Of a stretch of DNA of 64,000 nt, positions 29,376-49,067 are shown one piece after another (the stretch's first letter is position 1; each line of letters begins with the position of its first letter). The DNA is taken from the NCBI RefSeq assembly GCF_000964465.1, contig NZ_BANH01000028.1:1-64000 (forward strand), written 5' to 3'. Under the pieces are notes generated by a model that saw only the letters and a list, made by a program, of their open reading frames with translations, ran no database searches and was not told the origin of the DNA. Source of the DNA: Gluconobacter thailandicus F149-1 = NBRC 100600. Lineage in GTDB: Bacteria; Pseudomonadota; Alphaproteobacteria; Acetobacterales; Acetobacteraceae. Position numbers and translations under genes: made by a program.

Positions 29376-30926
29376 TCAGGCTGCCTGAACTGTACTAACC
29401 TTCTGCGCTGGCGAACGTGCTGCAACAGCACTGGCCGCATGTGGCGTCAGCGTACGTTGAACGGCATCGTGCCAACCATCGATCATGATGCGACGCTGTG
29501 CCGGGTCCATCTTGGGTGAGAACAGGCGCTCCTGCTCCCAGGTGGCCGCGACCTCATCAAGACTTTTCCACAGACCAACATGCAACCCGGCCAGAAAGGC
29601 CGCACCAATCGCCGTGGTTTCGACATTGACCGGGCGCTCGACGTCCGCCTTGAGCATGCTGGCCAGGAACTGGGCGAACCAGTCATTGGCAGCCATGCCG
29701 CCGTCAATACGCAACGTCTTGGCCCGCATGGCGCCATCCTGACGCATGGCATGAACAAGGTCATACGTCTGGTAAGCGACGGATTCCAGCATCGCACGGG
29801 CAATATGAGCCTGCGTTGAACCCAGCGTCAGGCCGCAGATCATGCCACGGGCTTCCGGGTCCCAGTGAGGCGCACCGAGGCCAACGAAGGCCGGAACCAT
29901 GTACACGCCATGGCTGTCAGGAATGCGCGTTGCCATGTCGTGGGTCTGGGAGGCATGCGTGATGAGATGCAGACCATCGCGCAGCCACTTGATGCCAGCG
30001 CCGGCTACGAAAATGGAGCCTTCAAGTGCATAGGTCGTCTTGTTGCCAATGCGATAACCAATCGTCGTCAGAAGACGGTTATTGGACTGGATCGGTTTTT
30101 CCCCGGTGTTGAGGAGCATAAAGCAGCCCGTACCGTAGGTTGCCTTGGCCATGCCCTCTTCAAAACAGGCCTGACCGATGAGCGCGGCATGCTGATCGCC
30201 AGCCATACCACCAATGATAACAGACTCACCGAACAGTTCGGGATCCGTTCGGCCGAACTCGCCGCTGTTGTCCTGAACCTCTGGAAGAAGCGCACGAGGC
30301 ACATTGAACAGGCTCAACAGTTCATCGTCCCACTGGAGGGTATGAATGTTGAACAGGGACGTGCGACAGGCATTCGTGATGTCTGTGGCATGTTTCTTGC
30401 CACCCGTCAGACGCCACAGGAGGAAACTGTCAATCGTTCCGGCAGCCAGTTCTCCGGCTTCTGCACGCTCACGGGCACCGGGAACATGATCGAGCGTCCA
30501 GGCGATTTTGCTGGCTGAAAAATAGGGGTCCAGCAGGAGACCGGTCTTGTCCCGAATGATCTCTTCTGCCCCCTGCTCCCGCAGACGGTTGCATTCATTG
30601 GCCGTCCGGCGATCCTGCCAGACCAGAGCGTTATGAATGGGCTTGCCTGTCTTGCGATCCCAGATCACCACAGTCTCGCGCTGGTTCGTGATCCCGATCG
30701 CAGCGATACGACCGATGCCACCCGCCAGCGATACGGCTTCCTGTGCCGTTTCGAGAACATCTTCCCAGATATCTTCGACGTCATGCTCCACCCAGCCCAG
30801 TTCAGGATAATGCTGAGGGAATTCGCTGCGGGAAATCGACAGAGCCTTTGCATTGCGATCAAAAACAATGCTGCGGGTTGACGTGGTGCCCTGATCAATC
30901 GCCAGGATGCAGTCTTTCTGTGTCAT
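29376..30926 (-). CDS. glpK: Glycerol kinase
   Basis: Phosphorylates glycerol to sn-glycerol 3-phosphate with ATP in the cytosol. FGGY family, 516 aa. Start motif [13 protein letters not shown], substrate/catalytic region [53 protein letters not shown] and [19 protein letters not shown]. The ATG at 30926 (MTQKD) has GGAG 8 nt upstream and is chosen over the longer form starting at 31013, which would run into glpF. Last gene of glpD-glpF-glpK, 25 nt after glpF. Confidence 0.96.
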
Positions 30927-30951
30927 GGTACTTACTCCGGAAACGGACAGA

Positions 30952-31854
30952 TCAAGAAACCTTGTCGATGACGGGGCCTGTTGAAGCAGGCACGGAAGGG
31001 TTCGAGACAACAAGAACAGGTTCTGCTGTGTTTAGCGCTTCAGATGAGCGCTCAGTTGCCATGACAGAAACCCGTGGCATGTAAGGGCGGACCCCATACT
31101 GATAGATTGCAGCACCGATCGGGCCACCCACCATCGGAGCCGCAATCGGCACCCACCAGTAGTTGGACGGCGCCGGAATGGCAGCCTGCCCCCATCCTGC
31201 AAAGAAGCAGAACAGACGCGGCCCGAAGTCACGAGCCGGGTTGATGGCCCATGCTTCAAGATAACCGGCAGAAGCGCCAATGATTGCCACCAGCAGGCCG
31301 ATAATCAATGCTCCGGAATTCGCCTGTGGTGCCTGCGTGTTATACTGGCAGGTCACGGCGAAAATACCGAACACCAGAATACCGGTCAGAACAGCCTCAT
31401 CCCAGAACGCATGAGATACGGTGATGAAATCGCCCGGATGCGTGAAGAACACGCCGGCAGAGCCACCATCAAGAGCACGCGTCAGGCCATGAGCCGCATT
31501 GTAGTGATCAATAACCGGCACATAGAGCGAATACACCAGCGCCGCACCAGCCAGACCTCCCAGCACCTGAGCCCCCATATAGGGCACAACTTTCTTCCAT
31601 GAAAATCCACGGAAGAGCGCGAGTGAGAGCGTCACCGCCGGATTGGCGTGCGTCCCACTAACCGCGCCGGTGGCGTAAATCGCAACCGTGACGGACAGTC
31701 CCCAGACGATACAGACACCCCAGTACGCCGTCTTGTACGGACTGGGATCGTAAAGTGAGTACATGGCGGCCACACCATCTCCGAAGAGGATGATGATGGC
31801 GACGGCAAAGAACTCAGCAAGGAGTTCACCAAAGTAGCGTTTATTCTCTGACAT
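30952..31854 (-). CDS. glpF: Glycerol uptake facilitator (aquaglyceroporin)
   Basis: Inner-membrane glycerol channel, about 300 aa. Two NPA half-helices characteristic of the aquaporin fold: HANPAV (about residue 68) and [10 protein letters not shown] (about 205); the Arg after the second NPA is the selectivity-filter residue. The RDFGPR form is typical of glycerol facilitators. The start at 31854 (MSENKRYF) removes an N-terminal extension that overlaps glpD. A C-terminal cytosolic tail of ~40 residues is longer than in E. coli GlpF. It sits between glpD and glpK. Confidence 0.93.
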
Positions 31855-31891
31855 GACCGGATATCCGACATGAGAATTGAAGAGAAGAAGA

Positions 31892-33472
31892 TCAGGCGAC
31901 GTCCTGCCGCCAGGTCTGGGATGTTTCGGAATGCGCCGGACGACCTGCCCCGCCACGTTCCTCGATATAAGTCTGGAGAGACGCCTTCTCCGCATCGGTC
32001 ATGAACAGACCAAGCTTGGACCGGCGCCACAGAATATCTTCGGCGGAGCGGGCCCATTCGTTGTCGATCAGATAATCGACTTCACGGGCACTTAGCGTCG
32101 CACCAAACCACTGCCCCATTTCGGCCTCGGCAGCCGTCGCAATATCAAACGCTCGCAGACCGTAATTCCGAACCAGACGCCACGCTGTTTTCGGCGTGAG
32201 ATGAGGCGCATAAGCCTGAAGTTTTGCGACCTGACGATCGAACTCGGCCGACGCAAAATCACCACCTGGCAGCGGTGTCTCTGCCGTCCAGGACGGGCCG
32301 CCCAGTACCAGCAGGTACGTCACGAGTTTCTCAAGTGCATGCTCTGCCAGCTTGCGGAACGTCGTAATCTTGCCGCCAAAGACAGACAGGATTGGCGCAC
32401 CAGAGGCATCAACATCCAGCACATAGTCACGGGTCACAGCAGACGCATTGCCGGAATTATCGTCATATAAAGGACGAACGCCAGCATACGTCCAGACCAC
32501 ATCATCCGGGCTGACGGACTTCTGGAAATAGCGGTTCACGCTCTCGCAGAGATACTGGATCTCGTCCTTCGAAATCTCGACTTTGCCGGGATCCTGCTCC
32601 CACGGCACGTCCGTCGTGCCGATCAGCGTGAAGTCCTGCTCATACGGGATGGCAAACACGATCCGCTTGTCAGGGTTCTGAAGGATGTAAGCCTGCTTGC
32701 TCTCGAACAGTCGAGGCACAACGATGTGACTACCCTTGACCAGACGCACCTTGTTCTTGCTGGCAACGCCAACACGATCCTGCAGCAGTTCTGCGACCCA
32801 TGGACCAGCAGCATTAATGATGATCTTGGCCTGAACGGTGCGTGTCTCGCCACTTGTGCGGTCAAGAAGCGTAGTCGTCCAGAGCTTTGATCCACGCTCT
32901 GCATGGATCAACTGCGTACGTGTGTTGATCGAAGCCCCAAGACGCGCAGCATCCATGGCATTCATCACGACAAGACGGCTGTCCTGCACCCATCCATCGG
33001 AATACTCGAAGCCACGGACATATTCGCTCTTGAGCGGCCGACCTGTTACATCAGTACGCAGGTTAACCGCACGCGTCTTCGGCAGTGTCATGGTCGTGCA
33101 GAGGTGATCGTACAGAAACAAGCCCGTTCGCAGCAGCCATGCGGGGCGAAGCATCTTGGAATGCGGCAGAACGAACCGCATCGGCCAGATGATGTGCGGT
33201 GCGATTTTCAGCAATCGCTCACGCTCAATCAGCGCCTCACGGACCAGCCGGAACTCATAATATTCCAGATACCGAAGACCGCCATGGATCAACTTCGTGC
33301 TGGCAGAAGAGGTATGGCTGGCCAGATCATCCTGCTCGACAAGCAGAACACTAGCGCCCCGGCCTGCGGCATCACGTGCGATACCACAGCCGTTAATGCC
33401 CCCACCGACGACAAGCACGTCATAAGGCGCGCTTTCCCGGTTCAAAGGCGAAACTTCACGAATCGATGACAT
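31892..33472 (-). CDS. glpD: Aerobic glycerol-3-phosphate dehydrogenase
   Basis: FAD-dependent membrane-associated enzyme converting glycerol 3-phosphate to dihydroxyacetone phosphate and reducing ubiquinone. 526 aa. FAD motif VLVVGGGINGCGIARDAAGR, then SSASTKLIHGGLRYLEYYEF, FVLPHSKMLRPAWLLRTGLF, RVGVASKNKVRLVKGSHIVV, FVGG-like FGGKITTFRKLAEHALEKL. AGGAG lies 7 nt before the ATG. First gene of glpDFK; a GlpR-operator-like dyad lies 38 nt upstream (33510-33529). Confidence 0.96.
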   Translation of the reverse strand: MSSIREVSPLNRESAPYDVLVVGGGINGCGIARDAAGRGASVLLVEQDDLASHTSSASTKLIHGGLRYLEYYEFRLVREALIERERLLKIAPHIIWPMRFVLPHSKMLRPAWLLRTGLFLYDHLCTTMTLPKTRAVNLRTDVTGRPLKSEYVRGFEYSDGWVQDSRLVVMNAMDAARLGASINTRTQLIHAERGSKLWTTTLLDRTSGETRTVQAKIIINAAGPWVAELLQDRVGVASKNKVRLVKGSHIVVPRLFESKQAYILQNPDKRIVFAIPYEQDFTLIGTTDVPWEQDPGKVEISKDEIQYLCESVNRYFQKSVSPDDVVWTYAGVRPLYDDNSGNASAVTRDYVLDVDASGAPILSVFGGKITTFRKLAEHALEKLVTYLLVLGGPSWTAETPLPGGDFASAEFDRQVAKLQAYAPHLTPKTAWRLVRNYGLRAFDIATAAEAEMGQWFGATLSAREVDYLIDNEWARSAEDILWRRSKLGLFMTDAEKASLQTYIEERGGAGRPAHSETSQTWRQDVA

Positions 33473-38448: not shown

Positions 38449-40737
38449 ATGATTCGACATATATCGGCTCTGACCCGCCACAGGCATCAGACAATGCTGG
38501 CAACATCTGCCCTGGCCTGGGGGCTTTCAGCCTTCCCTGCCGCAAAGGCTCAAACACCAGCATCACCTGACGAAACTCCAACCACGGCAGCCAGTGCCCC
38601 CACGGTAAAGCTCCGCCCTCTCCATGTGCGCGGACAGGCTTCGGCAGATGTCATTAATTCCATGAAGGTTGACCCGGACGCAGACTATAGCGCTGTCGGA
38701 AAGCCCCGTGTCATGACGACGACAGTGACACTGAAAACACTCCAGTCCCGCATGATCGACAGCATTGCAGATTATGCCCGGCGCGTGGATGCCGGGATAA
38801 ATTACAACAACAACAATCTGAGCATTAACATGCGTGGATTGGATCAGAACCGCATCCTGACCACGATCGACGGTATTCGGACAATCTGGGCCAATGACGG
38901 CGCCCGCGGCGTGGGTGGTGGCGTATCATCCTACGATTTCAACTCGCTCGGATCGATCGATATTGTCAAAAACGCAAATTCCGGTTTTTTCGGAACGGGT
39001 GCCCTTGGAGGTGTCGTCTCCCTTAAAACTCTGGACCCGGAAGATATCCTGACGGGTAACAAGGTTTTCGGCGGACTGACAAAACTGACCTATGATGGGT
39101 CCAGCGAAAGCGGATACCTCAATCAGGCTCTCGCAGGGCGTTACCACAACACAATGATCCTTGTTCAGGGCGGCTATCAGACCGGAAGCCAGACCGGAAA
39201 CAGAGGCGGCACCGGTGGCGTAGGCACGACGCGTTCTGACAAGGATCCTGCCTCTTACACACAGGGTAATTTCCTCGGAAAAATTCACCAGTATGTCGAA
39301 GGTGGCCATCGTTTTGGCCTGACAGGAGAAGTTTTCGACCGCAACTATAACGAAAATACGTTGAGCAGCATCAGTTCCACATACAGCCGCTATCACACGC
39401 TTGAAGAAAGTAAACGCTCTCGCGTCTCCGGCAGCTACGACTACAAGGCGGAACGCCCTTCTGCACTCATCAGTGAGGCCCATCTCATTGCCTACTGGCA
39501 GAAGGTCAATATGATTACCGATACAGCCGCCAATCGCCTTACAGCCCCGCTCGGCGAGTATGATCGGAACAGTAATCTTGCCGTTCAGTCTTACGGTACG
39601 AGCGGATCAGTCACTTCAAACGTCTTTACTGGCCCCCTCCATCACGTCATTACATTAGGGGGCGAAGCCTACATCACCGATACCAGTCAGTACGCAGGCG
39701 GATTGGATAACTGCACTGCAACTCTCTACGCATGTAGATTCTTGCATGTTAACCAGTCAGATATGCCAGATGTTCATGGCACAGACCTGGGTGCGATTGT
39801 GCAGGACCGCATTGGGGTCGGAAAAATGGAGTGGCTTCACATCACACCAGGCTTCCGCTTCGATTATTACAAGCGCAGCCCGCAATATACAGCGACATAT
39901 GCAAATAATGCCGCCTATACCGGAACACCTAACGATGCCAGTGGCTCCCATTATTCGCCAAAAGTTCTTGTCGAAGCCCGTGTTCTGAAGAATCTCACAC
40001 TGTATGGGCAGTACTCCGAAGCTTTCCGCGCACCTTCCGCAACCGAAATGTATCTGACATATGGTGGCACAGGAAGTTATGTTTCGATTGGTAATCAAAA
40101 TCTGAGACCTGAATCCAGTCGAGGCTGGGAGGTCGGTGCCCGATATGGAGATACTAAGCGGGGCGCTACGATTTCATTCTTTGACAATTACTATCACAAC
40201 TTCATCGACACCATCACCACGACGGCCGCCGCCGCAGGCATTGGCGGCTATTATCCGTTCGGTGTCTTTGAATATGTCAATCGTCAGCATGTTCGTATCT
40301 ACGGCGTAGAGGCCCGCGCCAACTGGACATTTGCAAATTACTGGCAGGTCTGGACCTCCCTCGCGTATTCAGATGGACGCGACACGGATGAGAATGTTCA
40401 CCTGAATTCCGTAGCACCATTTCGTGGCATTGTAGGCGTTGCCTATAACCGGGAGCATTGGGGCGCGAACTTCTCAATGACCTTTGCCGCTGCGCGTAAC
40501 AAGGTCGAAAACATGGCGTCCAATGCCAACAAGACGCCAGGTTACGCGATCTTTGATCTGACAGGTTGGTACTCGCCAAAATTCTTCCCGAACCTGCGCG
40601 TTCAGGCCGGTATGTATAACATGTTCAACAAGCGTTATTATAATGCGCTGGATATTCCGGACAGCATCAGCGTTCCAAAATCCTATTACTCACAGCCTGG
40701 TCGCAGCTTCAAAGTCACGACCCTCATCAACTTTTAA
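38449..40737 (+). CDS. TonB-dependent heme/hemoglobin receptor
   Basis: 762-aa outer-membrane receptor. Signal peptide with SALAWGLSAFPAAKAQ. The plug includes MIDSIADYARRVDAGINYNN, NINMRGLDQNRILTTIDGIR, GGGVSSYDFNSLGSIDIVKN and GTGALGGVVSLKTLDP. Receptors of this HmuR/HasR-like group show a similar GxxLGGVV stretch and barrel motifs such as YSEAFRAPSATEMYLTYGG, where FRAP is a hallmark of heme receptors. The C-terminal Phe (TTLINF) is the normal barrel end. GAGG precedes the ATG. Divergent from the heme oxygenase-hmuTUV operon. Confidence 0.88.
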   Translation: MIRHISALTRHRHQTMLATSALAWGLSAFPAAKAQTPASPDETPTTAASAPTVKLRPLHVRGQASADVINSMKVDPDADYSAVGKPRVMTTTVTLKTLQSRMIDSIADYARRVDAGINYNNNNLSINMRGLDQNRILTTIDGIRTIWANDGARGVGGGVSSYDFNSLGSIDIVKNANSGFFGTGALGGVVSLKTLDPEDILTGNKVFGGLTKLTYDGSSESGYLNQALAGRYHNTMILVQGGYQTGSQTGNRGGTGGVGTTRSDKDPASYTQGNFLGKIHQYVEGGHRFGLTGEVFDRNYNENTLSSISSTYSRYHTLEESKRSRVSGSYDYKAERPSALISEAHLIAYWQKVNMITDTAANRLTAPLGEYDRNSNLAVQSYGTSGSVTSNVFTGPLHHVITLGGEAYITDTSQYAGGLDNCTATLYACRFLHVNQSDMPDVHGTDLGAIVQDRIGVGKMEWLHITPGFRFDYYKRSPQYTATYANNAAYTGTPNDASGSHYSPKVLVEARVLKNLTLYGQYSEAFRAPSATEMYLTYGGTGSYVSIGNQNLRPESSRGWEVGARYGDTKRGATISFFDNYYHNFIDTITTTAAAAGIGGYYPFGVFEYVNRQHVRIYGVEARANWTFANYWQVWTSLAYSDGRDTDENVHLNSVAPFRGIVGVAYNREHWGANFSMTFAAARNKVENMASNANKTPGYAIFDLTGWYSPKFFPNLRVQAGMYNMFNKRYYNALDIPDSISVPKSYYSQPGRSFKVTTLINF

Positions 40738-40749
40738 ATGACTCACCAC

Positions 40750-40790
40750 TTTTCTGAATGGCCCGTACACTCTACCAGCCATTCAGAAAA
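40750..40790. terminator. Bidirectional terminator between heme receptor and YncE-like gene
   Basis: Stem TTTCTGAATGGC / GCCATTCAGAAA (40751-40762, 40778-40789) with a 15-nt loop; T and A runs flank it on both sides. The last codons of the minus-strand gene are inside the 3' arm. Confidence 0.8.
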
Positions 40791-41721
40791 AACCGAGCGT
40801 CTCACAGCCTGATCCAGCTTTAACCGTCCTCACAGGTTTCCGGGTCACAAGGTCGATTTCGGTCAACGTGCCATCATCTTCATTCGCTACGATCACGGTC
40901 GTTCCGTCAGGCCTGAAAGCTGCATCCATCGGCTTGTTCCCGACTGCAACGGGGTACTGATCCCACTGCGGCAGACTGATCAAGGTCACGACAGACTCAG
41001 AATCGCCAATCACCAGAAGCCACTGTTCGTCGGGGCTAAGACGCACGATCTGTGCGGCTTTGCGATGATGCTTGAGTACGATCTCCTGCCGCAACTCCCC
41101 TGCATCCACGTCCATCAGAAACAGAGACGGCTTGAAAGCGTTTGTCACCACGATGAATTTTTCGTCCGGCAAATGCTCGATCCCAGCGACAGATACGGGA
41201 AGAATAATTGTCCGCCTGACGGTATCATCGCCAATCCGGATAACAGATAAAGTTGCGTCTTCTTCATTCTCCGTCACGATAAGCTTGCGGCGGGGAAGAA
41301 TGGTCAGCCTATGGGAATTGCAGGAATATGTAGGCAGAACCGCCGTGACGCGTTTGGTTTCCGGGTTGATCACCGCGAGCGCGGAACTGTTTTCACAACA
41401 GACATACAACAAACCATCAGGCCCAAAGCGTAGAGTGTGCGGCGCTTCCAGAGGTGTCAGGTCAATATCGGCAATACGCTTTCTGGCCATTAAGTCGATT
41501 ACGGTAACGAAATGGTTTGGGTTGGGATTATCGCCATGCACGCCATTTCCGAATGCAGGTATAAATGCCAGTCCGCGTTTATGATCAATTGCCAGTTCAT
41601 GAGGCAGAACCGGCATTCCCGTAATATGATCCAGCGTCTCCAGTGTATCAGGATCAAGGAAAAGAACCTGAGCAGCTTTTTTATCGACCGCAATAAGCCC
41701 GTTGCCGCGTGCACTGATCAT
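40783..41721 (-). CDS. YncE-like beta-propeller protein
   Basis: 312 aa, soluble, no signal peptide visible. Repeated propeller blades, for example HTLRFGPDGLLYVCCENSSA, IVRLSPDEQWLLVIGDSESV and DAAFRPDGTTVIVANEDDG. Similar seven-bladed proteins include YncE and some 6-phosphogluconolactonases; the exact role here is unknown. It is the last plausible member on the same strand as the polyol cluster, but 168 nt and a long hairpin separate it from the deoR gene. Confidence 0.7.
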   Translation of the reverse strand: MISARGNGLIAVDKKAAQVLFLDPDTLETLDHITGMPVLPHELAIDHKRGLAFIPAFGNGVHGDNPNPNHFVTVIDLMARKRIADIDLTPLEAPHTLRFGPDGLLYVCCENSSALAVINPETKRVTAVLPTYSCNSHRLTILPRRKLIVTENEEDATLSVIRIGDDTVRRTIILPVSVAGIEHLPDEKFIVVTNAFKPSLFLMDVDAGELRQEIVLKHHRKAAQIVRLSPDEQWLLVIGDSESVVTLISLPQWDQYPVAVGNKPMDAAFRPDGTTVIVANEDDGTLTEIDLVTRKPVRTVKAGSGCETLGFF

Positions 41722-41889: not shown

Positions 41890-42714
41890 TCAGGCCACAG
41901 CCACGACAGGAGTTTCCATAGGCTGCATTTCTGCAATACGGAGATTAATACCAGCCCTGACCATACGATCAGCAACTTCATCCGGAAGCCCGGAGTCAGT
42001 TATTACGGTATCGAAATCTGATAGATTGGCGAGATGGTTGAGTGCGCTAATGCCAAATTTGCGACTATCCACCATTAGAATTCGCCGGTCTGCCATGTTC
42101 ATCAACGCACTTTTTGCTTTAATCAGATCTTCGTCCTGATGGTAAGCTGAAAGCCCGTGAATGGCAGATGTGGACATGAACAGCGTGTTGATCCGCAGAG
42201 ACGTGACACTCCGCTCGCACAGGACTCCCAGAAATGCATCGAAGGTCGGATTATAATGTCCACCCAGTGCAATCAGGCTGATATCCCTTGAACGCCCAAC
42301 CTTGGTGCTGATCCCAAGACTGTTTGTTACCACCGTGAGTTCCCCGATTGAACTCAGGCGTTCAGACAAAAACCGGGACGTCGTGGAGTCATCAAGTGCA
42401 ATAGTATCGCCCTCTTCAATCAAACCTGCAGCAATGGCGGTAATTCCAAGCTTTTCCTGAACGGCCTGGCGAGCCCTGTGCGTAATACTGCTGGCAGCAA
42501 CAGCATTGGACAGTGTCGTAACACTCTCGCCGACCTTTCGAATAAGCCCCTGTGTGGCTAGCGCATGCAGATCTCGGTTCATGGCAGCCCGCGTCATGAC
42601 GAAATGCGAAAGCAGGTCCTGAATCAGGACGCAGCCCTGTTCGGTCACATAATCCAGTACGGCCTGTCGGCGCGTTGAAAGCCCATGGCTTCCGGGAAGA
42701 AAATCGGGAATCAT
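41890..42714 (-). CDS. DeoR-family transcriptional regulator
   Basis: 274 aa. Winged helix at residues ~14-70, with LIQDLLSHFVMTRAAMNRDL and ALATQGLIRKVGES. The sugar-phosphate-binding domain has EEGDTIALDDSTTSRFLSER, LTVVTNSLGI and MVDSRKFG. The start overlaps the isomerase stop by 4 nt. It is paralogous to the plus-strand regulator at 48249-49067 (shared LDDSTT, LFMSTS/MFLSTS and NP.F.AFLG/FFGLVCE patterns), so two related regulators bracket one cluster. Probable effector: a sugar phosphate intermediate. Confidence 0.85.
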   Translation of the reverse strand: MIPDFLPGSHGLSTRRQAVLDYVTEQGCVLIQDLLSHFVMTRAAMNRDLHALATQGLIRKVGESVTTLSNAVAASSITHRARQAVQEKLGITAIAAGLIEEGDTIALDDSTTSRFLSERLSSIGELTVVTNSLGISTKVGRSRDISLIALGGHYNPTFDAFLGVLCERSVTSLRINTLFMSTSAIHGLSAYHQDEDLIKAKSALMNMADRRILMVDSRKFGISALNHLANLSDFDTVITDSGLPDEVADRMVRAGINLRIAEMQPMETPVVAVA

Positions 42715-43493
42715 GCTGGTGCCCTTTCTTCAATGATACGGTCAATCAGCTTTTCGAAATCAGGAACATTCCAGCCAGCGCGCCCCACGAACACTCCGTC
42801 CACATTGGGCTGTTCAACATAGCTGCGCGCGTTGTCCTGTGTAACGCTGCCACCATAAAGCAGCGGCACGCGCGCGCCGATCTCCGCACCTGCAATTTCG
42901 TTCAGAACCCGACGCAGGCCGGTATGAACACGTGCGACACAGTCCGTATCGGCAGCACGCCCCCCTGCACCGATTGCCCAGACAGGTTCATAGGCAACAA
43001 GAATGTCAGGCAGATCTTCTACTGCAACATCATGCAGGGCGATCTTGAGCTGCCGTGCCAGCGTTTCATCTGTCACGCCATAATCATACTCTTCAAGGCT
43101 TTCCCCAATGCAAAGGAGTGGACGCAGACCGTGACGCATTGCTGCGGCCATCTTGCGACTCACGGTCCAGTCCGTTTCAGCAAAATGCTGGCGGCGCTCG
43201 GAATGACCAATCAGCACAATATCAGCGCCACATTCCTTGACCATTTCTGGTGAAATTTCACCCGTCCAGGAGCCACTCTCTTCCCAATGCATGTTCTGTG
43301 CACCGACCACAACGTCGGAAGTTTTCAGAACGCCTGCAACGGCCTGAAGAGAGGTGAAGGGTATGATGACGAAGGGCTTCACCCCCTCTGGCGGGTGATA
43401 ACTCTTCAGAGCCTCGGCCGCTGCAAGAGCCTCTGCCGGCCCTTTGTTCATTTTCCAGTTCGTGCCGATCCAGACTGTCTTGCGTGTCACCAT
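42711..43493 (-). CDS. Triose-phosphate-isomerase-family enzyme (TpiA or EryH-like)
   Basis: 260 aa TIM barrel with all catalytic residues: K14 in TNWKMNK, H97 in LIGHSERR and E169 in VAYEPVWAIG; phosphate-binding GGSVTQDN is also present. The NWKMNK opening and the AIGAGGRAAD stretch look closer, from memory, to tetrulose-phosphate isomerases such as EryH than to housekeeping TpiA (NWKMNG, AIGTG). Without a search the substrate stays open. GGAG precedes the ATG. It is 196 nt downstream of the aldolase-like gene and overlaps deoR by 4 nt. Confidence 0.8.
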   Translation of the reverse strand: MVTRKTVWIGTNWKMNKGPAEALAAAEALKSYHPPEGVKPFVIIPFTSLQAVAGVLKTSDVVVGAQNMHWEESGSWTGEISPEMVKECGADIVLIGHSERRQHFAETDWTVSRKMAAAMRHGLRPLLCIGESLEEYDYGVTDETLARQLKIALHDVAVEDLPDILVAYEPVWAIGAGGRAADTDCVARVHTGLRRVLNEIAGAEIGARVPLLYGGSVTQDNARSYVEQPNVDGVFVGRAGWNVPDFEKLIDRIIEERAPA

Positions 43494-43689
43494 TCATCTC
43501 CACACAGAAGAGAGCAATTGCCTATTCTTTATCGCTCAACATAGGAAAGCTTTAACGCTAAATTCTAACACCCAAAACAAAGGAAGTTTCAAAACGAATG
43601 ATATTTTCCAGTCAACTCTCCGCGCCTAATCACTATGGATAATACCCAGATAGACGCGAAGAAGTTGGAATATAAAGATCTTTTCAAGA

Positions 43690-44673
43690 TCAGGCGGCCT
43701 GTTCCAGCAGAACGCTTTCCGTCACCAGACTATCAGATTCGGCCGGACGCAGCATTTTAATGCCCTTTCGGCTCAGCCCATCATGATAGAAATGCGTTGC
43801 CTCATTGGGCGACAGATCACCATCCGTCACACGACGCATGGCTTCGATCAGAAGCAATGGATCATCAGCATCGACGATCTTGCGTCCAAAGAGCGCGGCG
43901 CGTGCACCGCGGCTCTGAGCCTGATGCACCAATTCAAGGCAGTCGCGTGTTGTTCCGCTGCCGCCGCCCATGATCCCGACAATGACCGTCGGGTCATAAT
44001 GGCAGAGTTCACTCAGAGCATCTCCCCCATTGAACGGCACCTTGAGGAAAACAGGCTTCTCTTCCTTTTTGAGACCTGCAAGAGATCGGGTGATCATATC
44101 ATTAAGGAATACGCCGTAATCGTTAGGCGCGATCCGGCTTTCGTTAGGATTGAAAACTTCCAGAAAATACGAGAACCGGTGGATCTGCGCTTCCTCACGG
44201 AAGCGGGCAAAGTCTTCCAGAGCCAGCGTATCCTGCTCAACATCGCCGTTAAACGTCATTGAATACAGACCAAGGCCCGTCTGGGCGCGCTCAAGGGACG
44301 CCGAGCGAAATGGCATAGATTTCTGGGACCGATAAGAACTTCCCCGACCACGCCAGAGATCGGTCGTATCGTTCGCGCGAATGGCCGTCTGTACTTTTGT
44401 TCCGTCGAATGCGTCCCGCTCCAGAAGGTCTTCCAGAATGGAAGCGGACGTCAGCATGATGTCCACAATATCCTGACCGATGATGGACTGGATCTCAGAC
44501 AGATATTCCGGTCTGGTCCGAAAGTCAGACTGCCCCGGCCGCGGGTTCCGGCGGCGTCCCATGGCACTGATCCCGGCAGCCATATCTGAATCCTTGGCGT
44601 CTGCCAGGATGAAATCGTAGCGCGTGTCCTTGCCAGCCACCATGCGTGCAATTTTTTCTTCGTAACGGTTCAT
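43690..44673 (-). CDS. Aldolase-like TIM-barrel protein of unassigned family
   Basis: 327 aa, cytosolic. Visible blocks: KDTRYDFILADAKDSDMAAG, VDIMLTSASILEDLLER, AIRANDTTDLW, RFSYFLEVFNPNE, KPVFLKVPFNGGDALSEL, VIVGIMGGGSGTTRDCLEL and ARAALFGRKI. The order of a strand-end Lys (FLKVPFNG), then GIMGGGSGTT and LFGRKI phosphate-site-like glycines, resembles class I aldolases of the LacD/DeoC/FbaB type, but I know no assigned function. It starts 4 nt after the GlpD-like gene, so belongs to the kinase operon. A role cleaving a ketose phosphate to dihydroxyacetone phosphate would fit the neighbours; this is inference. Confidence 0.6.
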   Translation of the reverse strand: MNRYEEKIARMVAGKDTRYDFILADAKDSDMAAGISAMGRRRNPRPGQSDFRTRPEYLSEIQSIIGQDIVDIMLTSASILEDLLERDAFDGTKVQTAIRANDTTDLWRGRGSSYRSQKSMPFRSASLERAQTGLGLYSMTFNGDVEQDTLALEDFARFREEAQIHRFSYFLEVFNPNESRIAPNDYGVFLNDMITRSLAGLKKEEKPVFLKVPFNGGDALSELCHYDPTVIVGIMGGGSGTTRDCLELVHQAQSRGARAALFGRKIVDADDPLLLIEAMRRVTDGDLSPNEATHFYHDGLSRKGIKMLRPAESDSLVTESVLLEQAA

Positions 44674-44676
44674 GGC

Positions 44677-46386
44677 TCAAGCCTTCAGAATTTCCTTGGG
44701 TTCAGACGAAAGAAGGAATTCACCCGGAAGATTGTGGCGTTCACGCCCTTCCTGCCAGGCAGCCTGAGCTTCACGAGCAATATCCTGCTCGCTCCAGCCA
44801 AGCTCTTCCCCAACGACACGAGCAACCTCCTGCACCACGTCCGGTGTCATGTGTCCGCTCAATGCAATAGGTGTCCGCCGGTACAGAACGTCCGACAGTC
44901 GGCGGACAAGTTCATTTCTGGCAATAAACGCCAGCTCACGACGCGTGTACGACGGCAATGTTCGCAGGGGCGCATCCGCTTCTTCCTGACAGAACGCCGC
45001 AATTTTCCGCGCAAGCGTACCATATCGATCCAGAAGGTCCGCAGCCCGCGGGCGCGGTATCCCGCAGGAGATGGCCAGCTTGTCCAGATAGGCGGTATGC
45101 TGTTCCACAGACGGGAAACTACGGCCGCCACCAATAGGCAGCTCTTTCGTGGACGTGCTTCTGGGGTAACCCAGCACATTCAGAATGCGATCAGCCACCT
45201 CTTCACCAAGTCCCCGGAACGTCGTCCACTTACCTCCTACGAGGGACAGCAAAGGCGTTCCTGCGAGATTGTCTTCGTGGGTGATGTGATCCCGGCTGAT
45301 AGCACCGGGGTCCGCCGCGTTCGTCGCTGGCAGAGGTCGCACACCACTATAACGGTAAACAACCTGTTCCTTGGCAATATGGAAACCGGGGAACAAATCC
45401 GCCAGCATGCGGAGCATGTAATGCTGCTCCTCATCCGTGCAGACAGCTTTGTCCGGATCGTCAATCCGCAGGTCCGTGGACCCCACGAGCACCTGGCCAA
45501 AGAAGGGATAAGCAAGACAGATACGCCCGTCGGGAGTACCAAAATAAACCATCCGTCCCTTTAATTCCCGAAGCAGATCATCATGCTTCAGAAGCAGATG
45601 GGAACCCTTGGTGCCTCCAATATACTTTGTCGGGAAGCCAAGAATCGCATTGATCTGATCAATCCATGCGCCGCCCGCATTGACGATCACACGGGCCTTC
45701 ACAATACGCGCTTCATCCGTCAGAACATCACGCAGCACAAGCTGACCATTCTGCAATGAAACAGGTACGGTATATGTCAGCGCTTTACAATTCGGCGCTG
45801 TTTCAAGCGCATCCTGCACACATTCATAACCAAGCCGCTCAGGCTGTGTGATGGCGGCATCATAATACTGAGCTGTCGCTACAACATCCCTAGCCATATG
45901 CGGCCATTCGCGACGCGTACGACCGTTCAGGAACAGCGAATGCCGCGGCATGACCCTGGCCCGACGTCCGAGGAAATCGTAGATCTGCAGACCGACTTCC
46001 AGAACAAGCGCGCCCCGGTCCGTCATTTTGCCCCCAAGCTTCAGGAAGCGGCGGAAAGACGGAACAATGCCTCCAAACCATGTGCGGATTGGTAGGACCG
46101 TCGGTAATGGACGCACCACATGCGGCGCATTTCTGAGAAGCAGATTACGCTCAAGCGTGGACTGCGCCACAAGCTTGAACTCACCTGTTTCCATGTACTT
46201 GATGCCACCATGAATCAGACGGGAGGGCGCGCAGGATGCACCCGTGCAGATGTCGCTCCGATCCAGAATGAGCGTTTTGACGCCCTGTAAAGCCAGTTCG
46301 CGGAACAACCCTGCGCCATTGATGCCCGCGCCAATAATGACAACATCAAATTCAGCGTTGTCCGAAACAACGGAAACGGATTTCAT
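44677..46386 (-). CDS. FAD-dependent polyol-phosphate dehydrogenase (GlpD paralogue)
   Basis: 569 aa flavoprotein of the glycerol-3-phosphate dehydrogenase family. FAD motif VVIIGAGINGAGLFRELALQ, then ASCAPSRLIHGGIKYMETGE, GGTKGSHLLLKHDDLL, GVRPLP and LVGGKWTTFRGLGEEVADRI. A GlpD C-terminal domain follows (RNELVRRLSDVLYRRTPIAL). It differs from GlpD of this window in the substrate loops (SCAPSRLIHGG versus SSASTKLIHGG), so a different polyol phosphate is likely, such as a tetritol or pentitol phosphate. Overlaps the kinase stop by 4 nt. Electrons would go to quinone. Confidence 0.8.
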   Translation of the reverse strand: MKSVSVVSDNAEFDVVIIGAGINGAGLFRELALQGVKTLILDRSDICTGASCAPSRLIHGGIKYMETGEFKLVAQSTLERNLLLRNAPHVVRPLPTVLPIRTWFGGIVPSFRRFLKLGGKMTDRGALVLEVGLQIYDFLGRRARVMPRHSLFLNGRTRREWPHMARDVVATAQYYDAAITQPERLGYECVQDALETAPNCKALTYTVPVSLQNGQLVLRDVLTDEARIVKARVIVNAGGAWIDQINAILGFPTKYIGGTKGSHLLLKHDDLLRELKGRMVYFGTPDGRICLAYPFFGQVLVGSTDLRIDDPDKAVCTDEEQHYMLRMLADLFPGFHIAKEQVVYRYSGVRPLPATNAADPGAISRDHITHEDNLAGTPLLSLVGGKWTTFRGLGEEVADRILNVLGYPRSTSTKELPIGGGRSFPSVEQHTAYLDKLAISCGIPRPRAADLLDRYGTLARKIAAFCQEEADAPLRTLPSYTRRELAFIARNELVRRLSDVLYRRTPIALSGHMTPDVVQEVARVVGEELGWSEQDIAREAQAAWQEGRERHNLPGEFLLSSEPKEILKA

Positions 46387-47975
46387 GGCCTGATCTCCTG
46401 CGTCTTTTCAGCTGCGACAAGAAAATTCGATACCGGCATCTGGTCAGTCGTCTCTTGGGCCGACCGCTCCGCCGCCCCCTCATACAGACCTGACCAGAAC
46501 GGCTTCATGGCCTGAGTAAGCGCAACATAACGCTGGTAAATGCCCTCATAGACGCGGGTTCGGACAGGTTCAGGCTGATAGACAGTCATGGGAATATCCT
46601 GCGCCGCAACAGCGTCTTCGAGACTGTCATGAAGACCAACGGCCACACTGGCCGTCAGGGCCGCGCCCAGCGCTCCGGCTTCCCGAACCCCGGAAATTTC
46701 CACCGGCATGTTGAGAATATCGGCAAACATCTGAGCGATTGAGGGTTGACCACTCCCTCCTCCCGAAACCCCAAGACGACGAACAGCTCCCGTTAGACGA
46801 AGAGTTTCGACATGCTCTCGATGATTGAAGATCGTCCCTTCAATCATGGCCTGAAACAGGTCAGCACGATCATGCCAGGACTGCACGCCAAAAAGAGACG
46901 CACTGGCCGGTGCTTCGTAGGGGGACCCGAACAGGAAGGGGTGATAGAGTGGAACCGGACGCTCCGCACGTGAACGATCAAGCCGGGCTTCGACTTCCCG
47001 CATCAAAATCTGGGCGGCCTCCTTTTCTTCCGGCAAAAGCAGGCGCGCCAGCCATTCGAGATTACTGGAAGAAGCAGGCGAAATTGCCATGCAATTCCAC
47101 AATCCGCGCCGGTATCCGGCACGACAGGACCACCCATCCCCAATGACCGGGCGGCTCCGGAAAATTTCGTTGATAGAGAAGGTCCCGGCCGTAATGGAGA
47201 GGTCACCGGGCTGGGTGTAACCCAACCCCACAGCCGCAGCCGTCACATCATGCAGCCCCACCGAAACAGGCGTTCCTTCCAGAAGTCCTGTCGCAACCGC
47301 GGCCTCACGCGTGATCGCACCACCCCGGTCGCAGGAAAGACGTATCTGTGGAAGTGCGTTCCTGATCTCCCTGATGTCCAGAATATCAAGAATGCTAGTG
47401 TTATAGTCCTGCATGTACAGATCGGTGAACGACGTACTGGCTTCCGTCAGATCCGTGGCAATTTCTCCGGTCAGGCACAGCCGGATCCAGTCCTTGGCAA
47501 AAAAGACCGTGCCTATCGCGCCATATCGTTCCGGCTCGTGACGCTTCATCCATGCGAGAAGCGTATTGGCCGAATAGGGATAAGGCCGCTGCCCCGCAAT
47601 CGGAACGATCTTCTCAAGGCGCCCCGCCTGCTTCCACTCTTCGTGCAATTCCGTCGCACGGCTGTCGAGCGACATGATCCCACGCCCCAAGGGTTTACTT
47701 GAGCGGTCAAGAACAAAAAGCCCATCTCCATGTGCCGTCACGCCCACACCAGCAATCGTTCGGGGATCCACGCCGGACGTCTCCACCGCATCCCTGACAG
47801 CCTCAACGACAGCCTGCCATGCTTCATGCATGTCACGTTCGACGTGTTTCGGCTCATCCATATGCTGTGGAACCCGCCGACGGCCCAACCCTAAGATTTC
47901 TCCCGTTCCCGAAAAGACAACAGCCTTCGTCGTAGTGGAACCGCAGTCGATCCCGATTGTGAAATCCTGGCGCAT
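46383..47975 (-). CDS. FGGY-family polyol/ketose kinase
   Basis: 530 aa. The N-terminal nucleotide fold is IGIDCGSTTTKAVVF; GVGVTAHGDGLFVLD and GIMSLDSRATELHEEW form the substrate face. GLHDVTAAAVGLGYTQPGDL, SITAGTFSINEI and the FGGY C-terminal LGVSGGGSGQPSIAQMFADI with VREAGALGAAL complete the family pattern. It phosphorylates a polyol or ketose not identifiable here; erythritol, threitol or a pentitol are candidates. The ATG at 47975 has GGAGG 7-8 nt upstream, preferred to 48035. First gene of the minus-strand operon; divergent from a deoR gene. Confidence 0.82.
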   Translation of the reverse strand: MRQDFTIGIDCGSTTTKAVVFSGTGEILGLGRRRVPQHMDEPKHVERDMHEAWQAVVEAVRDAVETSGVDPRTIAGVGVTAHGDGLFVLDRSSKPLGRGIMSLDSRATELHEEWKQAGRLEKIVPIAGQRPYPYSANTLLAWMKRHEPERYGAIGTVFFAKDWIRLCLTGEIATDLTEASTSFTDLYMQDYNTSILDILDIREIRNALPQIRLSCDRGGAITREAAVATGLLEGTPVSVGLHDVTAAAVGLGYTQPGDLSITAGTFSINEIFRSRPVIGDGWSCRAGYRRGLWNCMAISPASSSNLEWLARLLLPEEKEAAQILMREVEARLDRSRAERPVPLYHPFLFGSPYEAPASASLFGVQSWHDRADLFQAMIEGTIFNHREHVETLRLTGAVRRLGVSGGGSGQPSIAQMFADILNMPVEISGVREAGALGAALTASVAVGLHDSLEDAVAAQDIPMTVYQPEPVRTRVYEGIYQRYVALTQAMKPFWSGLYEGAAERSAQETTDQMPVSNFLVAAEKTQEIRP

Positions 47976-48028
47976 TACTGGCCCTCCGAACGCTCTCTCG
48001 CCATCAGCCTTCACGGAACACGCGACTG

Positions 48029-48098
48029 ATAACATGAGAAATGTTATTATCAGGTGATATAAGTGTTATTATGTCCGCGTCAACGTGATAAATATCAC
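48029..48098. promoter_or_regulatory. Cluster of dyads and repeats in the divergent kinase/deoR promoter region
   Basis: ATAACAT-GAGAA-ATGTTAT (48029-48047) has perfect 7-bp arms. GTGATAAATATCAC (48085-48098) is a perfect palindrome. TGTTATTAT occurs twice (48042-48050 and 48064-48072) and GTGATAT recurs at ~48054 and ~48122. Together they look like multiple operators for the two DeoR paralogues. Confidence 0.6.
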
Positions 48099-48248
48099 TT
48101 TCAGCGCTAGAGAGCTTCTTGTGTGATATTTCCTCGCAAAACCTCATCAAACTGCACATCCGAACATTACAAATCCGGCTAGCGCTGGTATGTAGAACTC
48201 CCTTTGCCGCGAAACGGCCTTCCCGATGGACAAGGATCTTTTTGACAG

Positions 48249-49067
48249 ATGACTGATGGTTCGGGCGTGATAACTGCCTCCCCTGGCGTCCTTCTCAGCA
48301 AACGTCGGGACAATAGCGCCAGGCAGCAGCAGATCCTCGATGTCCTTCTGGAAACCGGAAGCGCGACGATCGAGACACTTTCAGAACGCTTTGGCGTCAG
48401 CCGGATGACCATTCACCGGGACGCACATGCCCTTGCCGACCAAGGTTTGATCGATAAACTTCATGGCAGCATTGTTCTTAAAAACCGGGTAGTAACCCAG
48501 AAAACAGTCAATTTCCGAAAATCCCGCGCACCTGATCTGAAACAATCCATCATCCATCGAGCCATCTCGATGATTACGCCGGAACAGATTCTGGTATTGG
48601 ATGACTCGACAACAGTCGCAGCAATGCTTCCTCTCCTGCCGGCTCTTGCTCCCCTGACAATCATTACTAACGCAGTCGGGGTTATTCAGGCTCTTTCCCC
48701 TTACCCGAACCTTAAGCTCATCTGTCTTGGGGGAGATTATAATCAGCCGCGCAATGCATTTTTTGGTCTCGTGTGTGAACAGGCGGCCAAGTCTTTGCGC
48801 GCCAATACGATGTTTCTCTCAACATCAATCATTCACAATGAAACTGCTTTCCAGAACGATCAGGACGTCGTGAAAGTGAAGCAGGCTCTGATGCAGATCG
48901 CAGATCAGACAGTCCTGCTTGTGGACAGCACGAAATTCCGAAAAGGTGGCCTGCATCGACTCGCCTCCCTGAACGAATTCGATCTTGTCCTGACGGACTC
49001 TCAACTCAAACCATCCATTCGGAAGTCTCTTATCCAGGATGGAATCAATATAGAAACCTGCGGTTGA
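48249..49067 (+). CDS. DeoR-family transcriptional regulator, divergent from the kinase operon
   Basis: 272 aa. Winged helix-turn-helix at ~25-80: RQQQILDVLLETGSATIETL, SERFGVSRMTIHRDAHAL, ADQGLIDKLHGSIV. Effector domain: ILVLDDSTTVAAMLPLL, LTIITNAVGVIQAL, CLGGDYNQPRNAFFGLVCE, VLLVDSTKFRKGG. It has the full DeoR recognition region (RMTIHRD), whereas the second copy at 41890 has a more divergent helix (RAAMNRD). Likely represses or activates the kinase operon from the shared 270-nt region. Confidence 0.87.
   Translation: MTDGSGVITASPGVLLSKRRDNSARQQQILDVLLETGSATIETLSERFGVSRMTIHRDAHALADQGLIDKLHGSIVLKNRVVTQKTVNFRKSRAPDLKQSIIHRAISMITPEQILVLDDSTTVAAMLPLLPALAPLTIITNAVGVIQALSPYPNLKLICLGGDYNQPRNAFFGLVCEQAAKSLRANTMFLSTSIIHNETAFQNDQDVVKVKQALMQIADQTVLLVDSTKFRKGGLHRLASLNEFDLVLTDSQLKPSIRKSLIQDGINIETCG

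Follow-up and report, generated by a model that had tools for sequence, protein, structure and literature searches.

The window considered here, a stretch of 64,000 nucleotides from contig NZ_BANH01000028.1 of Gluconobacter thailandicus F149-1 = NBRC 100600, contains a cluster of six genes encoding an FGGY-family kinase, a GlpD-like flavoprotein, an aldolase-like protein (ALD), an isomerase of the triose-phosphate isomerase (TIM) family and two DeoR-family regulators (Table 1). The cluster is ordinary-looking and looks like half of a gene set for small sugar alcohols or for sugars made from them. It is most likely one half of a split operon of a new layout serving tetritols and tetruloses, and it may be regulated jointly with the other half on a second contig of the same draft genome (3.43 Mb, 191 contigs). 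We lean, if only slightly, towards a pathway in which the kinase and the flavoprotein would feed two exits, one through a LerI-type isomerase and RpiB and the other through ALD acting as a lyase. The lyase would be the new part of this system.

The divided operon and its isomerase

In G. morbifer (locus L008), a single operon runs in the order kinase-GlpD-ALD-LerI-DeoR-RpiB-substrate-binding protein-ABC ATPase-permease-Dak kinase. Three other Acetobacteraceae genera share this gene row at six loci (L115-L119 and L121), and a further genus shares it at two (L134 and L135). In the window genome, the contig labelled C78 carries an isomerase, a DeoR regulator, RpiB, a periplasmic binding protein, an ABC ATPase, a permease and a Dak1+Dak2 kinase, with isomerase and DeoR thus being present twice, in the window cluster and on C78. 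The initial annotation, which was made from the window alone, had listed neither RpiB nor a transporter. This is correct within the window, but it fails for the genome because both are encoded on C78.

Within Gluconobacter, the order of kinase, GlpD-like, ALD and isomerase genes is kept in all 15 loci found with ALD, and the cluster is therefore not a chance assembly. With the window proteins as queries at the same threshold, 5 of these loci gave a match for regulator 1 and 4 for regulator 2. RpiB lies at most 8 kb from ALD in 11 of the 15, and in G. japonicus, G. sp. Gdi and G. cerinus it is distant from ALD but present elsewhere in the genome. In the draft genome of G. frateurii, which keeps kinase-GlpD-ALD-LerI, the search for an RpiB of this type found nothing (five of six genomes gave a match), so ALD may be its only exit. 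Among named organisms, the closest relatives belong to Gluconobacter (G. frateurii at 95% for ALD); in the Acetobacteraceae sample, two further Gluconobacter genomes carry ALD and four among those listed do not.

The RpiB of G. morbifer exceeds the cut-off of the D-erythrulose-4-phosphate isomerase model NF051858 (241.0 versus 240), and its C78 counterpart falls just below (233.5). The Dak-family kinase (Dak1+Dak2) of both loci may act on erythrulose. The six genes of the cluster were all recovered on the strands and at the positions initially annotated, and the tight coupling claimed for the first three and the last two genes was confirmed by measurement: kinase and GlpD genes overlap by 4 nt, 3 nt separate GlpD from ALD, and the TIM-family gene overlaps that of regulator 1 by 4 nt. 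The intergenic gap between ALD and the isomerase amounts to 196 nt. The true kinase start may be an internal ATG at 47975, which corresponds to the start of the related proteins of L015 and L018.

Table 1. Features of the cluster in the window, with the grounds for their assignment.
Feature	Position	Strand	Grounds and putative role
DeoR-family regulator 1	41890..42714	-	DeoRC + HTH_DeoR (Pfam)
TIM-family isomerase, EryH/LerI type	42711..43493	-	Pfam TIM; putatively L-erythrulose 1-phosphate to D-erythrulose 4-phosphate
ALD, candidate class I dihydroxyacetone phosphate-forming ketose-1-phosphate lyase	43690..44673	-	Invariant residues, weak profile similarity
GlpD-like FAD dehydrogenase, 'glpD2' type	44677..46386	-	DAO + DAO_C (Pfam); putatively polyol phosphate to ketose 1-phosphate
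FGGY kinase, 'kin2' type	46383..48035	-	FGGY_N/FGGY_C (Pfam); putative tetritol/polyol kinase
Divergent promoter region	48036..48248	.	GTGATAT/ATATCAC repeats, one palindrome GTGATAAATATCAC; candidate DeoR operator
DeoR-family regulator 2, divergent	48249..49067	+	DeoRC + HTH_DeoR (Pfam)

The isomerase points to four-carbon substrates. Its best match in the PDB is an L-erythrulose-1-phosphate isomerase (11ef, 225 bits), with the best TIM reaching 189 bits. The genome holds three TIM-family genes, located in the window, on C78 and on a further contig, C169. The window protein is 61% identical to the C78 paralogue and 38% to the C169 TIM, which is likely the housekeeping copy and whose neighbours, on inspection by eye, look like genes for CTP synthase and enolase. 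Where the C169 TIM has the loop VGSASL, the window isomerase has GRAGW; a GR(A/S)xW or GRAGW ending is common to the window, C78, other Acetobacteraceae and TpiB sequences compared, with L120 (GRFAH) as the exception. In identity and loop, the window protein was thus found to resemble the EryH/TpiB type and not the housekeeping TIM. The NCBIfam TIM models NF000722 and TIGR00419 are both passed by the window isomerase. Still, NF000722 is likewise passed by the C78 copy and failed by the C169 TIM, and the label therefore fails to tell the two functions apart in the way its name implies. Judged by its sequence, the isomerase is of the erythrulose-phosphate type (EryH/LerI) and not a housekeeping TIM.

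With an EryH/LerI-type isomerase as well as RpiB and a transporter in the genome, the pathway is most likely one for a tetritol and its ketose. The FGGY kinase would phosphorylate a tetritol (erythritol or a threitol) entering the cell, and the GlpD-like flavoprotein would oxidise the hydroxyl adjoining the phosphate to give erythrulose 1-phosphate, with the electrons passing to quinone. The families of both enzymes support the order polyol, polyol phosphate, ketose phosphate that had been suggested initially. At the first exit, the isomerase and then the C78 RpiB would lead to D-erythrose 4-phosphate. At the second, ALD would act as a class I Schiff-base lyase splitting the ketose 1-phosphate into dihydroxyacetone phosphate (DHAP) and a small aldehyde, which would be formaldehyde in the case of tetrulose 1-phosphate. 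It is established chemistry, applied here by inference, that GlpD-type oxidation next to the phosphate yields a 2-ketose 1-phosphate and that a retro-aldol cleavage of the latter releases DHAP and the remainder. The C78 half may import a ketose, possibly L-erythrulose, for phosphorylation by the Dak-family kinase; Gluconobacter makes L-erythrulose in the periplasm.

The kinase-flavoprotein pair and the ery-type loci

Plasmid pRL12 of Rhizobium johnstonii 3841 carries two kinase/GlpD pairs. One strand encodes RpiB, TIM, DeoR, a regulator, a TIM-barrel protein, GlpD and FGGY, a set which is named here as ery genes from the gene order and PMC3599248, the names not being in the record. The opposite strand encodes an ABC transporter, DeoR, a second FGGY kinase and a second GlpD. 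Two pairs also occur in Sinorhizobium sp. B11, Shinella zoogloeoides and Paracoccus sp. TOH. In quick trees, the window kinase and GlpD-like protein group with the second pair of these four ery-type loci (18-row clades, SH-aLRT support 95 and 98), here called kin2 and glpD2. EryA and EryB occupy separate clades that do not contain the window proteins, and an orthology of the window proteins with EryA and EryB was accordingly not found in these trees, which carry long-branch warnings. The window GlpD-like protein also stands apart from the other GlpD-type protein of its genome in the quick tree. In the available part of PMC3599248, Gluconobacter does not occur and the second kinase/GlpD pair receives no assignment.

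Two distinct ALD clades, that of the window and that of Shinella L036, contain members joined to kin2/glpD2, which favours the proposed pathway. Without ALD, the pair occurs in four plasmid records (three of Rhizobiaceae, one of Paracoccus) and in the operons L130 and L131. None of the four plasmid records is among the 54 records with an ALD match, which applies to the plasmid records and not to the rest of the genomes. Three of the four ery-type loci with kin2/glpD2 show a TIM and an RpiB gene in the stretch, and the stretch of the fourth starts at RpiB.

EryC, which the initial annotation had reported absent, was searched for with two queries. The Rhizobium protein gave no match in the window genome, and neither did the Sinorhizobium protein, which matched three of three ery plasmids as a positive control; the latter query also gave no match in the Shinella record containing L036. 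Xylose-isomerase-like proteins of the loci L047-L049 (own genome), picked by eye as EryC candidates, were not matched by the EryC search. Direct membership in the EryABC pathway was rejected in view of the kinase and GlpD trees together with the missing EryC match.

Several kinase/GlpD pairs were noted besides. On pRL12 (L140, 14022-17340), a class II fructose-bisphosphate (FBP) aldolase gene adjoins the second pair on the other strand. In L129 (13875-17330), the operon kinase and GlpD persist only as shortened reading frames, and ALD is also absent there. Another FGGY kinase and GlpD-type gene at 29376-33472 of the window, about 8 kb from the cluster, are probably ordinary glycerol genes.

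The aldolase-like family and the readings of its function

ALD has no Pfam match at E ≤ 0.001. In NCBIfam, it shows weak matches to aldolases of the LsrF/2-amino-3,7-dideoxyheptulosonate synthase type only (best 2.8e-6, 26.8 bits versus a cut-off of 297), and it lies under every curated cut-off. Nevertheless, Lys211, Glu172, Asp25, Asp28, Gly236-Gly237 and Gly263-Arg264 are invariant in 76 of 76 distinct family sequences, Lys27 is replaced by Arg in 2 of the 76, and the family has conserved motifs of its own around DAKD, RxND, EVFNP and FGRKI. Lys211 is the predicted Schiff base, and Gly236-Gly237 with Gly263-Arg264 are predicted phosphate loops. A PDB profile search with the family found LsrF (E 4.3e-5, positions 235-300 of 330). 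The hhalign comparisons, which are weak evidence as they use one or two target sequences, gave E 1.2e-6 and probability 82 with a Haloarcula FBP aldolase as the one target, probability 13 with one LsrF alone (Lys211 in a gap) and probability 94.5 with both aligned together. In the alignment with the Haloarcula enzyme, GG/GR falls on GG/GR and Lys211 on a Lys which we take to be the Schiff-base residue on strand 6. As the best PDB match of the kinase is an autoinducer-2 kinase and ALD weakly matches LsrF, an autoinducer-2 (LsrK/LsrF-like) function was considered as well; it was rejected since the scores are far under the cut-offs and the kinase sits with ery-type genes.

The family was found in 38 of 299 Acetobacteraceae, 5 of 289 class and 4 of 398 phylum genomes sampled, the samples overlapping and each count including the window genome. 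Moreover, it is present on 46 plasmid records at a coverage of at least 80%. In the 40 listed rows of 47 plasmid records, those copies that bear an annotation are named only 'hypothetical protein'.

The neighbourhoods of ALD were compared within a radius of 8 kb in 79 loci, consisting of the window, 15 Gluconobacter loci, 16 plasmid loci and 47 other genome loci and including short contigs as well as three duplicates of other loci (L090/L017, L091/L015, L111/L027). A sugar kinase is found within this distance in 79 of 79 loci, a count without a baseline from random stretches. By tblastn, at 23-29% identity in some cases, the partner kinases were assigned as FGGY with GlpD (35 loci), PfkB (27), ADP-dependent phosphofructokinase-like (ADP-PFK-like; 10) and Dak (7). 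The PfkB gene lies at most 104 bp from ALD in 27 of 27 cases, 25 of them on the same strand. LerI is near ALD in 28 and RpiB in 22 of the 79 loci; EryC and a kinase of the four-carbon-acid type were found in none. These kinase pairings fit a DHAP-releasing lyase better than an epimerase. Together, the invariant lysine, the predicted phosphate loops and the kinase in every locus support the aldolase reading proposed for ALD at the outset. Members of the ADP-dependent phosphofructokinase/glucokinase family were seen near ALD in L028 (10349-11605) and L037 (10077-11336), both with PF04587; further ADP-PFK-like loci are L102, L105, L109, L110, L113, L114, L120 and L128, often with a short-chain dehydrogenase nearby.

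A wider proposal is made tentatively and with clearly less confidence than the two-exit pathway. The family may comprise new class I lyases which convert R-CHOH-CO-CH2OP to DHAP and R and which work with at least four kinds of kinase, the Acetobacteraceae members being a dedicated erythrulose-1-phosphate lyase (EC 4.1.2.2) beside LerI/DerI.

Several observations weigh against a lyase of tetrulose 1-phosphate in the cluster. On the ALD tree, the label of the partner kinase changes 9 times where the minimum possible is 3, which speaks for the lyase, but the labels are strongly clustered all the same (mean of shuffled labels 35.1), and if only well-supported branches are counted, the changes required are fewer (4, 3, 2 and 2 by group). 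The operons L130 and L131 look intact without ALD; the genomes of L129-L131 hold one ALD each, elsewhere, in an erythronate-type locus. Together with the four kin2/glpD2 plasmid records, both operons indicate that ALD is dispensable in some operons. In the genomes G799 and G908, the operon copy has diverged (a long branch, DAKD changed to DARD). Five of the seven Dak loci (L122, L123, L125, L126 and L133) combine ALD with a D-erythronate dehydrogenase-type gene and a xylose-isomerase-like protein and belong to the ALD clade of the window, and therefore the substrate there may be an acid instead of a tetrulose. The D-erythronate dehydrogenase model NF043036 is exceeded in L122 and L123, the two loci scanned. 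Furthermore, formaldehyde is toxic, a pentitol substrate with glycolaldehyde as product is possible, the kinase and GlpD trees are quick ones with the warnings mentioned, and the isomerase exceeds the NF000722 cut-off, though the C169 TIM fails it.

Two of these groups of loci deserve a closer description. In L122 (4164-8590, Dak from 8636) and L123 (7368-12112), erythronate dehydrogenase-type protein, xylose-isomerase-like protein (fused in L123), ALD and Dak follow in a row. The usual erythronate route uses a kinase and a decarboxylase, and loci of this type possibly represent an erythronate-type route in which ALD and Dak replace these two. The ALD copies of L134 (9191-10147) and L135 (9167-10123) have a long branch and DARD for DAKD, perhaps a change of function. 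Besides, DhaK, DhaL and an LsrF-type aldolase lie in a row on an Aureibacter plasmid (L138, 567-3237), a similar kinase-aldolase pairing in another phylum.

Among the alternatives, a longer polyol is the strongest, although we regard it as unlikely. ALD would cleave a pentulose or hexulose 1-phosphate, formed from a pentitol or hexitol, into DHAP and glycolaldehyde or glyceraldehyde, and LerI, RpiB and Dak would serve L-erythrulose. The substrate range of ALD may be wide, as it is accompanied by several kinases and differing transporters, and genes for an aldehyde and an alcohol dehydrogenase adjoin it in Vibrio L035. In addition, 8 of the 35 FGGY+GlpD loci have no LerI within 8 kb; among such loci, a search with TpiB gave no match on four plasmid records (those of L036, L025, L026 and L035), and a fifth genome yielded matches at TIM level only (39-43%). 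On the other hand, the four ery-type loci keep kin2/glpD2 without ALD, where a pentulose 1-phosphate would need another exit, and most full operons have the tetrulose enzymes in the same gene row.

It is less probable still that ALD stands in for EryC as a non-orthologous epimerase, converting D- to L-erythrulose 1-phosphate through an enamine or by retro-aldol and aldol steps in a Brucella-like pathway. The missing EryC match and the LerI-type isomerase next in the operon would agree with this, as would the fact that GlpD and LerI flank ALD in 26 of the 35 FGGY+GlpD loci. Nevertheless, 51 of the 79 loci have no LerI within 8 kb, so the epimerised product would be left without an evident local route; in 37 of the 79, the partner of ALD is a PfkB or an ADP-PFK-like kinase; and two genomes keep the operon without ALD, though the one ALD that each has elsewhere could act in trans. 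Finally, a second TIM that drains ALD-made DHAP would complete the route to glyceraldehyde 3-phosphate favoured by the initial annotation and would suit the Pfam family and the NCBIfam scores of the isomerase, but it is very improbable given the nearest solved relative, the GR(A/S)xW-type loop in place of VGSASL, the housekeeping-type TIM on C169 and an RpiB gene nearby in 22 of the 28 loci with a LerI-type isomerase, so that action on tetrulose phosphate, the alternative offered at the time, is judged the better reading.

Known pathways, regulation and flanking genes

The tetritol/tetrulose operon proposed here resembles the ery pathway of Brucella and Rhizobium (EryA-EryB-EryC-EryH(TpiB)-EryI(RpiB)) in its FGGY kinase, GlpD-like dehydrogenase, EryH-type isomerase and near-DerI RpiB as well as in the DeoR gene beside the isomerase and the RbsB-type (Peripla_BP_4) ABC binding protein. 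It differs in that the kinase and GlpD match the second pair and not EryA/EryB, no EryC was found, ALD and a Dak kinase are added and the operon is split in the window species. With LerK-LerI-DerI of Mycolicibacterium smegmatis, it shares the combination of a Dak-family kinase, to which family LerK belongs, with a LerI-type isomerase and a probable DerI-type RpiB; unlike that system, it adds the kinase and flavoprotein route and ALD, and none of the Gluconobacter operons was seen to encode a cytosolic polyol dehydrogenase. ALD itself resembles, by weak profile similarity and by the Lys and GG...GR aligned with the Haloarcula enzyme, the class I aldolases of the LsrF/DhnA type, such as archaeal FBP aldolase and the dideoxyheptulosonate synthase, whereas its scores under all curated cut-offs and its own motifs set it apart.

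We know of no dedicated gene for a route of tetritol use to DHAP and formaldehyde. The reaction which would fit a kinase, GlpD and an aldolase acting on a tetritol is EC 4.1.2.2. In the part of PMC10733421 available to us, which also describes the enzymes LerK, LerI and DerI (their pathway being described in the accessible part of PMC12780249), FBP, rhamnulose- and fuculose-phosphate aldolases are credited with erythrulose-1-phosphate lyase as a side activity, and a cleavage role is said to have been suggested for erythritol use in Propionibacterium pentosaceum and Sinorhizobium meliloti. According to the sections of PMC4437456 at hand, the erythritol pathway could not be reconstructed in Propionibacterium freudenreichii. 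In the literature searched, as far as its texts were accessible, no link between the ALD family and EC 4.1.2.2 was found. If ALD is a lyase, a family of 'hypothetical proteins' across Acetobacteraceae, Rhizobiaceae and Vibrio would gain a function. A dedicated erythrulose-1-phosphate lyase would in addition be a better enzyme for the formaldehyde-fixing erythrulose monophosphate cycle, as called for in the same part of PMC10733421, and would allow a test of whether this cycle occurs in nature. The cluster also offers a lead on what the second kinase/GlpD pair at the Rhizobium ery-type loci may do.

Regarding regulation, the GTGATAT motif of the divergent promoter region gave 27 matches in 15 upstream regions versus a mean of 1.0 in 300 shuffles, although the motif had been selected by eye in the very regions counted, whose sequences are related. 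It occurs once upstream of the C78 half and is absent from the L013 region. Regulator 1 is 50% identical to the DeoR of C78 and 56% to that of the G. morbifer operon, and a divergent homologue of regulator 2 (66-70% identical) occupies the same place in L115-L119 and L121. A scan for promoter-like elements found 3 versus a shuffle mean of 5.3, thus nothing above the shuffles; terminator-like elements numbered 12 versus a shuffle mean of 8.2 (standard deviation 2.7). Next to the cluster, genes for a TonB-dependent receptor-type and a beta-propeller protein lie at 38449-41721 of the window; such genes adjoin the cluster also in G. frateurii, G. sp. Gdi and G. cerinus (L004, L006 and L007).

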